A DNA stretch of 64,000 nucleotides from Pontiella agarivorans (GTDB lineage: Bacteria > Verrucomicrobiota > Kiritimatiellia > Kiritimatiellales > Pontiellaceae). Shown here in pieces: positions 2,127 to 56,583 of this stretch. The stretch lies in the NCBI RefSeq assembly GCF_034531395.1, contig NZ_JARVCO010000012.1, forward strand, positions 1 through 64,000. Reading direction: 5' to 3'. A model generated the notes under the pieces. It worked only from the letters and a program-made list of their open reading frames with translations, had not been told where the DNA came from and did no database searches. The number at the start of each line of letters is the position of its first letter. Position 1 is the first letter of the stretch. The translations under genes were made by a program, and so were the position numbers.

Positions 2127-3482
2127 ATGATTACTGCCATCAGCCCGATTGACGGGCGCTATGCATCGAAGGTTGCTGAGCTGACCGAATGTTTTTCTGA
2201 ATATGCGCTGGTACGCAACCGTGTGCGTGTTGAAGTGCTCTGGCTTATGGCCCTGTGTGCCGAGGCCGGGATTCCGGAGTGCCGAGGCCTGAGCGACGAG
2301 GAAAAGACGTTGCTCATAGGTATTGTCGAAGATTTTACACCGCAGGAAGCGGAAAAGGTTAAGGAGATTGAGCGCACGACCAATCATGATGTGAAGGCGG
2401 TTGAGTATTACCTGAAGCAAAAAATTGCCGGAACCTCGCTGGAAGAACTTTCAGAATTTCTGCACTTTGCATGCACCTCGGAAGATATCAACAATTTATC
2501 GCATGCTTTGATGCTGAAAGATGGGATCGCGACTATTCTGCCGCATCAGCAGGCAATGATTGATGCGTTGAAAACGTTTTCCAATGATTGGAAAAGTGTC
2601 TCTATGTTGGCTCGCACACATGGTCAGACGGCTTCGCCGACGACGATCGGAAAAGAGCTGGCGGTTTTTGCAGACCGTTTGGCTATGCAGAAGCATAAAA
2701 CGGAATCGGTTGAGATTCTTGGAAAGCTGAATGGTGCCGTTGGAAACTTTAATGCTCATTTGTCGGCTTATCCGGACGTTGATTGGCCGGCGCTGGCGCG
2801 GGGCGTCATTGAAGATCAGCTCGGGCTTAAACAGAATCTGTTTACCACTCAGATTGAGCCGCACGATTATATGGCCGAAATTTTTGATGCCATCAGCCGG
2901 TTCAATACGATTCTCATCGATATTGACCGTGATATCTGGACCTATATTTCCATGGGCTATTTCGGACAGAAAACCGTAAAAGGGGAGGTCGGTTCCTCCA
3001 CCATGCCACATAAGGTTAATCCAATTGATTTCGAGAATTCGGAAGGTAATCTGGGAATCGCGAATGCGGTCTTCGGGCATCTTTCGGCTAAGCTTCCGGT
3101 TTCGCGCCTTCAGCGCGATCTTACCGATTCCACGGTACTGCGCAATATGGGGGTCGGTTTCGGATACTCCATGATTGCTTATCTCTCAACGCTTAAAGGT
3201 TTCGGTAAGCTTAAATTGCGCGAGGATGTGCTTGCGTCTGATCTTGATAGTGCATGGGAAGTACTGGCCGAGCCGGTGCAGACGGTCATGCGTAAAGCCG
3301 GGATTGAAAAACCGTATGAAAAGCTCAAAGATTTGACCCGGGGCAAAGATGGAATCACCGAACAGACGATTCGTGAATTTGTTCAGAGTCTGGAACTCGA
3401 TGAAGCGGACAAGCAGCGTCTGCTTGAGATGACGCCGGCCTCGTATGTGGGCATGGCTGAAAAAATTGCTGAAATGCTGTAG
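2127..3482 (+). CDS. purB: Adenylosuccinate lyase
   Basis: It splits SAICAR to AICAR in purine synthesis and adenylosuccinate to AMP. The start [16 protein letters not shown] and the 451-residue length match the E. coli-type PurB branch of the fumarase/aspartase superfamily. [14 protein letters not shown] and [16 protein letters not shown] supply the conserved substrate and catalytic segments, and the family signature [16 protein letters not shown] sits near residue 290. An AGGAG stretch precedes the ATG by about 7 nt. It is followed by its own terminator, so it is probably monocistronic. A copy of the TTCCA-N5-TGGAA palindrome lies inside at 2579-2593. Confidence 0.97.
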
Positions 3483-3504
3483 TATATTCTTTAGGGCGAA
3501 TATG

Positions 3505-3533
3505 AAAAAGCGGTCTTAGGGCCGCTTTTTTTG
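3505..3533 (+). terminator. Bidirectional terminator between purB and the thermonuclease gene
   Basis: AAAAAGCGG pairs with CCGCTTTTT and has a T run on both strands, so it can end purB on the plus strand and the minus-strand operon that finishes at 3605. Confidence 0.85.
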
Positions 3534-3604
3534 CATCCTGTGTTGCAGATGGATGTTTCCGCTTAGCCGGAATCTGCCGGTTGGAGCGGAGTCATTGTTG
3601 TAGA

Positions 3605-3964
3605 TCAGTAGTCTTTGTATTCGGCATGGCCGGTTTCAACCAGCTCATCGTTGATGTTGATATACGAGCTGTTTTCCTCAAGCCAGATTTCCGCGAGATA
3701 GCGGCCGTATTTGCCCTTTTTGTCCTTGATCGTTTCGATGAGTATTTCTTTTCCGAGAATTCTGGAACGCAGAAAGTCGCGCGATACTTTTCCGGCTTCT
3801 TTTTCAGCACCGCGAACCTCGGGGGCATTGATGCGATGCAGTCGGATTTTTTCTCCTCTGACGGCGATTTTCAGGCCGAGATCAATGTCGACAGTTATCG
3901 TGTCGCCATCATAGACCGCGGTGACCAAAGCTTTATAGTGGAAGAGCCAATCTGCAGTTTTCAT
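3605..3964 (-). CDS. Thermonuclease-family (SNase-like) nuclease
   Basis: A small protein with the staphylococcal-nuclease fold. The metal site is visible in YDGDTITVDIDLGL, the core in IRLHRINAPEVRG, and the second catalytic region in KDKKGKYGRYLAEIW. I chose the ATG at 3964 (MKTADWLFHYKALV), giving 119 residues, because the domain starts there. An in-frame GTG at 4048 would extend it by 28 residues and directly abut the DUF1080 stop (TGAGTG). No signal peptide is visible with the shorter start. It is the last gene of the minus-strand group. A palindrome copy (3984-3998) lies 20-34 nt upstream of the chosen start. Confidence 0.8.
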   Translation of the reverse strand: MKTADWLFHYKALVTAVYDGDTITVDIDLGLKIAVRGEKIRLHRINAPEVRGAEKEAGKVSRDFLRSRILGKEILIETIKDKKGKYGRYLAEIWLEENSSYININDELVETGHAEYKDY

Positions 3965-55308: not shown

Positions 55309-55428
55309 AAGGAGAAACTATAAAGTCCTTTGAAAGTCGGCAGAAGCCGGAAAGAAAAATCTTTGCTGGCGCGATAGAGCCCTTTAGATGCAGGTCGAAG
55401 ATCGGTGGAGACGTGATTTACGAGCGGC

Positions 55429-56517
55429 TTAATGGATGAATTCAAAGCAGATGGGTTCACTCTCCAGCGCAACCCGTGTGTCGGTAAAGGTCAGATCGGC
55501 GGTTTTCGGATCGATGCTGAAGATGACAATATCTTTGGAGAGCTGGCCGCCGACGATGAGCCATTGACCGGAGGAATCGATGTTGAAATTTCGCGGGAAC
55601 CACACTTGCGCAGGTGTGGTTTTTATTCGCTCTGCCCCGGTGGCGGTGATGCGGAAGGTGATGAGGGCATCGCGACGTTGGGCGGAGCGGTCGCGGAGGG
55701 AGGTGTAGATCAGCTTGCCGTTGGGATGGATACGGATCTCGGCGGCGGTGAGGTCATTTTTATCTGCGTTTTCAGGCAGCATGGGGGTGGTGCTGAGGAA
55801 GTTGAGCCGGCCGTTTTCCAAGCACTGGAAAACGGAGAGACTGAGGTCGAGTTCATTGAGAACATACAGCCTTTTTCCATCGGCCGAAAATTTCATATGC
55901 CGCGGTCCCATGGCACCGCCGGGTACGACGGCTTCGCCGGCGGGGGCGAGGGAGCCTTCTTCGGGATTCATGCTGTAGATCATGATTTTGTCAATGCCGA
56001 GGTCGGCGACATAGGCGTGGGTGTTTTCAGGGTTCGGGTAGACCGAATGACCGAAGGCTTTTTTCTGTCGCTGGGGGTGTTTGCCGGAGCCGGTGTGCCG
56101 GTGAATGGAGATGGCTTCTGAAAGGGTTCCGTCGGAAATTTTAAAGGAGGCGACGCTTCCGGAGCCGTAGTAGGCGGTCATCAGCATTTGTCCGGTTCGG
56201 TCGGTGCTGACGTGACAGGAGCCTTTTTCGCCGGTCTGCTGTTCGCTGATCGGAGTAAGGGTTCCGTTGTCGCTGATTTTAAAGGAGGCGACGCCGGTGG
56301 CGTAGAGAAGGCGGTTGTCGGGGGAAACGGTTATGAAACCGGCGCCCCGGGTATCGGCGGCTTTGACCGGCGGTGAGAGTTGACCGGTTTCGGTGTCGAG
56401 GTCGGTGAAGTATATTCCGCCGTCTTTTCCGGTTCCGATGTAAACGCGTTCGATTTTCGCGGTGGCGCATCCGGAAAGAAGTGATGCGACGGCCAGAGAC
56501 AGCAATACGGCTTTCAT
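55429..56517 (-). CDS. Lactonase family lipoprotein (6-phosphogluconolactonase-like seven-bladed propeller)
   Basis: A 362-residue protein with lipobox (ASLLSGC) and a beta-propeller of the YbhE/Pgl type: IYIGTGKDGGIYFTDLDTET-like start, FITVSPDNRLLYATG, GHSVYPNPENTHAYVADLGI and PRHMKFSADGKRLYVLNELD. Members hydrolyse sugar lactones. The Met at 56517 is taken because it starts the signal peptide; the frame upstream to 56700 overlaps the DUF1501 gene. It may act on lactones made by partners in this cluster. Confidence 0.83.
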   Translation of the reverse strand: MKAVLLSLAVASLLSGCATAKIERVYIGTGKDGGIYFTDLDTETGQLSPPVKAADTRGAGFITVSPDNRLLYATGVASFKISDNGTLTPISEQQTGEKGSCHVSTDRTGQMLMTAYYGSGSVASFKISDGTLSEAISIHRHTGSGKHPQRQKKAFGHSVYPNPENTHAYVADLGIDKIMIYSMNPEEGSLAPAGEAVVPGGAMGPRHMKFSADGKRLYVLNELDLSLSVFQCLENGRLNFLSTTPMLPENADKNDLTAAEIRIHPNGKLIYTSLRDRSAQRRDALITFRITATGAERIKTTPAQVWFPRNFNIDSSGQWLIVGGQLSKDIVIFSIDPKTADLTFTDTRVALESEPICFEFIH

Positions 56518-56568
56518 ATAAAAACTCCCGATCAGTTGAAGGGACATGGTAGTGAAACGGCCGCGGGT

Positions 56569-56583
56569 TTCCAAACCCTGGAA
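56569..56583. repeat. Intergenic palindrome copy between the DUF1501 gene and the lactonase
   Basis: TTCCAAACCCTGGAA lies 4 nt past the DUF1501 stop and 52 nt before the lactonase ATG on the minus strand. Confidence 0.8.

Follow-up and report, generated by a model that had tools for sequence, protein, structure and literature searches.

The 64-kb window analysed here, positions 1-64,000 of contig C12 of genome G000 (4.44 Mb in 12 contigs), carries 23 exact copies of the palindrome TTCCA-N5-TGGAA, and these are part of a real and strong chromosome-wide system at the level of DNA, live in certain lineages and in decay elsewhere. Dinucleotide shuffles of the window yield 0.14 copies on average and never more than 2. 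The original prediction made on this DNA had placed every one of the 23 sites correctly; its chance expectation of about 0.06 differs from the shuffled figure, but the excess itself is borne out. The genome-wide iteration that it proposed is also found, since the whole of G000 contains 1146 copies (258 per Mb) as opposed to five of the reversed-pattern control AAGGT-N5-ACCTT. The enrichment neither vanishes outside the window nor falls to the level of codon-matched models, the two outcomes that had been named beforehand as speaking against it. In a 464-kb sample of G000 (the window plus C2:1-400,000) the two half-sites stand five bases apart in 116 cases, and each other gap from 0 to 15 accounts for only 0-5. 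The 358 genes of this sample contain 78 sites, compared with a mean of 8.6 (maximum 16) after synonymous-codon shuffling and 0.79 after shuffling of codon order; together with the genome-wide count these figures argue that the signal is real, is no codon effect and reaches beyond the window. Codon-preserving shuffles leave the excess unexplained, and the constraint thus rests on the DNA and not on the protein, as had been suggested.

According to a simple home-made gene caller, 19 of the window sites lie inside open reading frames (ORFs), distributed 7/7/5 over the three frames, and four lie outside. The near-equal use of frames claimed previously therefore stands for the window, but not for 1.184 Mb of G000, where 214 of 317 sites are inside ORFs and frame 0 is favoured (97/62/55). 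The other 103 are not wholly in ORFs, though 88.9% of this DNA is coding, so that non-coding DNA has the higher site density. Along gene bodies the distribution is even (9, 7, 7, 10, 9, 6, 5, 9, 10 and 6 sites by tenths). Genes shared with the close relative G405 hold 56 sites in 217 kb and genes without a counterpart there 10 in 62 kb, a direction that fits fewer sites in younger genes, with numbers too small to lean on.

The specificity of the motif is seen directly in the 317 sites of the 1.184-Mb set. Their consensus is T-TTCCA-RNSNY-TGGAA-A, with an information content of about 23 bits when the core is exact; once the sites are symmetrised, R occupies position 5 in 94%, S (G or C) the centre in 90% and T position -1 in 56%. 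The central R..Y symmetry noted earlier is obeyed by 20 of the 23 window sites. The spacer prefers a G/C centre with T/A flanks, and outside the palindrome no sequence is shared beyond two bases. Positions 5 and 9 show no pairing covariation (AT 92, AC 75, GT 77, GC 39; odds ratio 0.62, p 0.065), a result that favours reading as duplex over reading as a single-stranded hairpin. Among forms that deviate by one base the most enriched in the 464-kb sample are A4>G (38 vs 5.75) and T0>A (17 vs 1.75), and those at position 3 show no clear enrichment, a pattern that suggests graded tolerance as for a protein. The spacer varies by lineage: the window's genus has RNSNY, AAGSCTT round the centre prevails in family f5, and both family f11 and arrays of G015 and G268 show Y..R, a pattern reminiscent of co-evolution between reader and site.

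Neighbouring sites favour two or three turns of the helix. Close pairs at pitches of 17-47 base pairs (bp) are far more numerous than expected in G000 (40 vs 9), G017 (132 vs 26), G001 (149 vs 29) and G028 (85 vs 7). In a list of 75 pairs, consisting of all 40 from G000 and the first 35 of the 132 from G017, nine have a pitch of 21-23 bp, 42 of 27-35 bp and four of 42-44 bp, with peaks at 21-22 and 30-32 bp and none at 24-26, 36 or 40-41 bp. For pitches of at least 19 bp, a form of the test that leaves out the 13 pairs at 17-18 bp, R is 0.43 at 10.5 bp, a value reached by 0 of 20,000 uniform nulls. The arrangement recurs throughout the class: 29 of the 30 genomes tested contain pairs at 30-33 bp, from one (G405, G319, G259) to 746 (G050), and there are none in G004. 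At 29 loci, one per genome, each picked for a pair at 30-33 bp with all four pitches admitted equally, 31 of the 52 close gaps measure 31 bp and 17 measure 32 bp. In genomes of family f4 the pitch is exactly 32 bp in 17 of 18 pairs (G085) and 13 of 13 (G271); the intervening sequence is by eye unrelated, hence the pitch there is no by-product of tandem duplication.

How such sites come about can be observed directly in uvrA. The site at 23592 encodes Phe-Gln-x-Leu-Glu in G000, G009, G017, G001 and G002, with spacer codons that differ among them, and the 20 other aligned genomes, which have no site, carry D, E, N, K, G or, in one case, Q as the second residue. The alignment has no gap at this position, which together with the differing residues means that substitutions created the site and altered the protein. 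In the alignments of window genes that were viewed, the site places are likewise gap-free and differ by substitutions, except for 54643, where tblastn failed to align G405. The densely populated genomes do not form one clade in the uvrA tree, which requires three changes and places G000 as sister to the sparse G405 and G002 as sister to G007; the system has therefore been lost or gained more than once. To judge from alignment and tree, the gain in G002 looks independent, because its five nearest tree relatives have Lys where the site needs Glu.

Once present, the sites are conserved one by one in dense relatives and decayed in sparse ones, in agreement with the conservation of position that had been proposed as a check. 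Alignments with at least 60% identity and coverage of at least 60-70% were kept, and rows of dus paralogues were excluded from the counts. In the dense G017 all seven of the G000 sites compared are intact, in genes with 77% amino-acid identity and against 7.4% in control windows, a rate at which seven out of seven has a probability near 1e-8. G009 (4/4), G001 (3/3) and G002 (1/1) repeat window sites already counted for G017, with controls of 7-11%; spacer identity at the sites kept in dense relatives is 60-80%. The closest relative, the sparse G405 (89% identity), retains 16 of 61 sites, compared with 19.0% of control windows; its mismatch histogram is close to that of the controls, apart from slightly more intact sites (26% vs 19%). 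Other sparse genomes retain 1/8 (G005), 2/8 (G022) and 0/4 (G004). Counted in both directions, which makes the counts non-independent, 54 of 62 dense-dense comparisons are intact (control 11.7%) and 8 of 154 dense-sparse ones (control 10.5%). The sites would thus appear to be held where the system lives and to undergo near-neutral decay where it does not.

The survey covered 40 relatives and 387 genomes sampled from the phylum, and among the latter raised counts are confined to the window's class, with strong variation between near relatives. By a hand count about 44 of 131 genomes of the class, in 13 of 40 families, have at least 50 copies, and no listed genome of another class exceeds 30. 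The restriction holds within the phylum sampled; beyond these genomes the search covered 80 named loci, mostly gammaproteobacterial, which contain a single copy altogether, and among them the Kiritimatiellae locus L031 has none in 18,953 bases. Within the genus the count ranges from 5 to 2297, dense genomes having about 700-2300 copies. The density is 258 per Mb in G000, 414 in G001 and about 520 in G033, the densest listed, which with G027, G028 and G030 belongs to the dense members of the same order. The class is probably Kiritimatiellae, going by a single named match to purB, a poor marker gene. One genome of another class, G096, contains 55 copies of AAGGT-N5-ACCTT, a pattern that numbers at most 15 in the other genomes of the phylum sample, and none of TTCCA-N5-TGGAA; this is possibly an iterated palindrome of its own.

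The explanation that we put forward, and to which we give an even chance, is that TTCCA-RNSNY-TGGAA marks the sites of one putative dimeric, class-specific DNA-binding protein with a nucleoid or organising role along the whole chromosome. We infer the protein as cause, its singleness and its architectural role. The strict dyad, the reading as duplex, the phasing, the fixed-pitch arrays and the conservation of sites together point to a dimer whose neighbours touch along one face, and the lack of preference for gene ends combined with the variety of housekeeping genes makes a chromosome-wide role more likely than a regulon. One half of the dimer would occupy each TTCCA, in two successive major grooves, with the spacer read indirectly; dimers on the same face of the DNA would be in contact, giving rise to the two- and three-turn spacings and to arrays at 31 or 32 bp. 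Lineages in which the protein is important would keep site-completing point mutations and hold their sites by selection in spite of amino-acid changes, and with loss of its function the sites would decay near-neutrally. A protein-binding site, one of several possibilities listed at the outset, seems the most fitting account of the palindrome.

Several observations weigh against the protein-lattice explanation. At the kilobase scale even spacing was looked for along the chromosome and not seen, the spacing being random (coefficient of variation 1.08 vs a random mean of 0.98). When the pairs at 17-18 bp are included in the phasing test, R is attained by 22 of 20,000 nulls and the best period shifts to 12.9; eleven of the 75 pairs form a separate peak at 17 bp, off a simple 10.5-bp grid, and seven more at 37-39 and 46 bp (six of them at 37-39) are off it as well. 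The dense-dense comparison rests on seven distinct sites, and in the reverse direction 18 distinct G000 positions lie opposite a site of a dense relative, only 8 of them being intact in G000, a comparison in which some loci had been fetched for their clusters and G017 has sites of its own. Further one-off forms are mildly enriched (C2>T 11 vs 3.5, T0>G 7 vs 1.25, T0>C 6 vs 1, A4>T 8 vs 2.25), as would also be expected under molecular drive, and biased uptake or repair would be able to hold sites in place too.

No binding protein was found, and no gene among the families profiled matches the distribution of the motif: none of PF01555, PF02384, ComEC and PF01797 tracks its density. The neighbourhoods of arrays and clusters, a small part of which was viewed by eye, have mixed contents and no DNA-binding gene in common. 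Autoregulation of the reader near arrays was considered and dropped, no shared regulator being visible in these neighbourhoods. Comparison of the 464 kb of G000 with 470 kb of G405 leaves 145 G000 genes without a counterpart, many only because the G405 stretch ended. A search for RNA families at six array loci returned a single match, a 6S RNA away from the array. A small helix-turn-helix protein at G000:C12:361170-361625 was considered as a candidate for the factor.

A live alternative, which we hold to be unlikely, is a DNA uptake signal: competent cells would prefer fragments with the motif and recombination would spread copies by molecular drive, with no role inside the cell. ComEC is matched in 51 of the 56 class genomes tested; however, it is present alike in the motif-poor G405, G004, G014, G015 and G019 and was not found in G147 (94% complete, 418 copies). 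Of the 38 intergenic copies in the 464-kb sample, two serve as stems of intrinsic terminators, a placement for which uptake sequences are known, and the mild one-off enrichment would suit this explanation. Drive predicts neither helical phasing nor fixed-pitch arrays, and uptake sequences are not known to form the latter. Like the motif described here, the uptake sequences of Pasteurellaceae and Neisseriaceae are strict and dispersed, and the share in ORFs, about two thirds, as well as the higher density in non-coding DNA resemble Haemophilus, as far as these are treated in passages of PMC1939737. The uptake sequences covered in those passages are non-palindromic, an asymmetry that is missing from the exact dyad and phased sites found here (PMC1939737).

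We consider it distinctly unlikely that the palindrome is of the methylation-linked kind, in which an orphan methyltransferase marks it and methyl-directed mismatch repair favours mutations that complete it. The bipartite palindrome with its gap of five does resemble methyltransferase targets; CCAN5TGG is the target of PflMI. The comparison with HIP1, the highly iterated palindrome (HIP) of cyanobacteria, made in the original prediction, is apt as an analogy, given a massive genome-wide excess of a palindrome that is abundant or near-absent among relatives, features shared with HIP1 and alternate HIPs in the relevant passages of PMC4390886. The same passages describe HIPs as mostly 6-8 bp long, GC-rich, present at 1000-2000 per Mb and accompanied by matching methyltransferases (PMC4390886). 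In length, composition and density the likeness fails, for the present site is a 15-bp gapped and helically phased one of about 23 bits, its TTCCA/TGGAA core is not GC-rich, and it is rarer, at 258 to about 520 per Mb. The lineage differs as well: the best named match of one gene is a Kiritimatiellae metagenome-assembled genome (MAG), with no cyanobacterial sign. No matching methyltransferase family emerged from the two that the test covered (PF01555 and PF02384, not C5 or Dam-type). PF01555, profiled in 56 genomes, has no match in the motif-rich G027 (767 copies), G033 (1091), G036 (579) and G029 (243), nor in G189, G408 and G268. PF02384, profiled in 49, has none in G408 and strong matches in the sparse G405 and G004, and its matches in G097 (982 copies; E 1e-4), G027 (E 4e-6), G201 and G268 are weak, albeit above the family cut-off. 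An information content of about 23 bits with graded tolerance is unusual for a methyltransferase, and the phasing would be left unexplained.

Spread by copying, as a repeat of the repetitive extragenic palindrome (REP)/bacterial interspersed mosaic element (BIME) type or as another small mobile repeat, is very improbable. REP/BIME are intergenic repeats in palindrome arrays, and palindrome arrays outside genes are found here too; several arrays of G408 share the stretches between their palindromes, a gene for a Y1-type transposase is seen by eye about 2.6 kb from a cluster in G005 (L311), and the motif-poor G045, G058, G064 and G074 are without PF01797. Yet this family is absent from the array-rich G408 and has 21 matches in G053, where 18 copies of the motif in 6.0 Mb correspond to background density; with matches in 44 of 49 genomes it shows no Y1 transposase link to the palindrome. 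The majority inside ORFs, the unrelated f4 spacers and the fixed 31/32-bp pitch all differ from REP/BIME. The dispersed copies sit in conserved genes at aligned codons without a common flank, and the gap-free alignments of uvrA and the window genes, with differences by substitution, do not support the small proliferating element that had been entertained for them. Terminator hairpins or a very large regulon, which would make the palindrome an element of RNA or transcription, are scarcely credible: nearly a third of the sites are not wholly in ORFs as against 11% non-coding DNA, and in two intergenic copies the palindrome is prolonged by a GC stem with a run of T behind it, but these are the only terminator-like ones among the 38, and the missing 5/9 covariation, the even spread along gene bodies and the location of the scanned window sites in housekeeping genes all speak against it. 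One of the two is at G000:C2:253605-253619, where the palindrome makes up the inner part of the terminator stem (ACGGGTTTCCAATCATTGGAAACCCGT, with a run of T after it).

For chromosome-organising proteins such as MatP (with its matS sites), Noc and SlmA, the sites number in the tens and lie in sub-regions of the chromosome. The strict dyad of the present motif is shared with matS and Noc sites, and its central S with the KorB operator, whereas the dense genomes of this genus have about 700-2300 strict sites for a reader that is putative. Protein-like specificity in a strict dyad and helical phasing, as anticipated for the sites of a nucleoid protein, are both present, the 17-bp pairs excepted. 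Gbn of Streptomyces, a small protein, binds thousands of short GATCWT sites spread over the chromosome, similar in this respect to the situation here; its motif is short and enrichment is not stated in the relevant passages of PMC9239103, in contrast to the individually maintained sites in the present genomes. The open-licence PMC literature yielded no description of the motif; subscription journals were outside the scope, and priority is not established.

A scan of 2.9 million viral contigs returned 18 stretches with a pair at array pitch. Four of these (L238, L242, L244, L254), with spacings of 33, 66 and 99 bp, look like chance or coding repeats. Three contain clusters with pitches of 31, 31, 22, 31 and 31 bp (L240), 31, 22 and 63 bp (L239) and 31, 31 and 41 bp (L251), 0.6-1.9 kb upstream of the gene for the terminase large subunit; our own gene calls found no convincing gene in the cluster stretches. 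As these clusters follow the same grid, viruses of these hosts seem to carry sites for the same putative reader. In G005 two near-identical inverted five-site clusters (L308; C4:1166344-1166464 and 1171395-1171514) lie about 5 kb apart at a contig end, with a terminase-like fragment between them by eye, and represent either a prophage or an assembly artefact. In G015, a genome with only 41 sites, the halves of the arrays at C99, C250 and C98 resemble DnaA boxes (TTTTCCACA/TGTGGAAAA) in some copies.

Table 1. The palindrome in the window and its clusters in three viral contigs, with strand of the host gene where it is the reverse (-)
Feature	Position	Context	State in other genomes and remarks
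site TTCCAATGATTGGAA	2579..2593	purB-like gene 2127-3482, Pfam Lyase_1/ASL_C	G405 has TGCCAAGGATTGGAA
site TTCCAGATCTTGGAA	3984..3998	ORF 3605-4048 (-)	
site TTCCAAGGTTTGGAA	13940..13954	gene 13254-14135 (-), Dyp_perox_C	intact in G405
site TTCCAATGTTTGGAA	18902..18916	gene 18778-19503 (-), Lysine_decarbox	intact in dense G017; not in G405, G005, G004
site TTCCAACCCTTGGAA	21225..21239	dus gene 20855-21904	intact in G009, G017, G001; not in G405, G005, G022, G004
site TTCCAATCCTTGGAA	21456..21470	dus gene 20855-21904	intact in G009, G017, G001; not in G405, G005, G022, G004
site TTCCAATCGTTGGAA	23592..23606	uvrA 22263-25079	intact in G009, G017, G001, G002; absent from 20 others of 25-row alignment
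site TTCCAGAGGTTGGAA	27404..27418	2-hydroxyacid dehydrogenase gene 26741-27889 (-)	intact in G405, G009, G017; not in G005, G022
site TTCCAATCTCTGGAA	27926..27940	outside called genes	intact in G017 (blastn)
site TTCCAAGGATTGGAA	30446..30460	second dus gene 30117-31049 (-)	
site TTCCAGACGTTGGAA	32405..32419	outside called genes	motif intact in G405
site TTCCAATCTCTGGAA	32784..32798	thiC gene 32442-34355	not in G405, G005, G022
site TTCCAAACGTTGGAA	37024..37038	ychF gene 36996-38096	intact in G405
site TTCCAGATGATGGAA	37407..37421	ychF gene 36996-38096	off R..Y rule; intact in G022, one base off in G405
site TTCCAGCTCTTGGAA	44555..44569	outside called genes	
site TTCCAAAGGGTGGAA	45426..45440	gene 44645-45583	off R..Y rule; intact in G405
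site TTCCAATCCGTGGAA	49454..49468	pdxA gene 49277-50227	off R..Y rule
site TTCCAACCCCTGGAA	50209..50223	pdxA gene 49277-50227	
site TTCCAATGGTTGGAA	50848..50862	gene 50229-51059	one base off in G405
site TTCCAGTCATTGGAA	53870..53884	UvrD/PD-(D/E)XK gene 52192-55308 (-)	
site TTCCAGGGCCTGGAA	54643..54657	UvrD/PD-(D/E)XK gene 52192-55308 (-)	G405: intact by blastn, unaligned by tblastn
site TTCCAAGCACTGGAA	55816..55830	ORF 55432-56121	
site TTCCAAACCCTGGAA	56569..56583	outside called genes (between 56376 and 56588)	intact in G405
phage cluster	L239:3034-3164		same helical grid
phage cluster	L240:2786-2946		same helical grid
phage cluster	L251:650-767		same helical grid

Some of the genes concerned deserve a remark of their own. 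The sites at 21456 and 30446 occupy a homologous codon position in two paralogous dus genes, and the latter site aligns with this position in the dus paralogues of G009, G017 and G001; the protein sequence there is perhaps pre-adapted to the palindrome. The purB gene has the Kiritimatiellae MAG L031 (63% identical) as its best named match, yet it belongs to a gammaproteobacterial type, since among the 79 further named matches about 75 are gammaproteobacteria by title; it was probably acquired by transfer, yet already has a site. The gene at 52192-55308 encodes a 1038-residue UvrD helicase with a PD-(D/E)XK nuclease end (AddA-like) and itself contains two sites. A small SET-domain protein (Pfam PF00856, E 8e-13) is encoded at 26400-26744, two genes downstream of uvrA. 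Elsewhere on the same contig, at G000:C12:423269-428410, a Cas9-like gene is followed by cas1- and cas2-like genes (by eye).

The question why certain bacterial genomes become filled with a single palindrome has stood since HIP1. The pairs of close relatives in which the system is on or off (G000/G405 and G002/G007, and with weaker tree support the clade of G017, G009 and G001 against G024), together with graded densities and phasing, make this question testable, and the DNA-level pressure is strong enough to change amino acids in a housekeeping protein, UvrA. It is tempting, if somewhat short of an even bet, to regard the whole as a new chromosome-scale code: a palindrome on a helical lattice with one class-specific reader, whose roughly 700-2300 sites per dense genome were written by point mutation largely through genes, at a cost to the proteins, and individually selected, with phased arrays in phages and repeated loss that left near-neutral remnants in close relatives. 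Should the reader turn out to be a chromosome protein dedicated to forming such a lattice, this would be a new kind of system.

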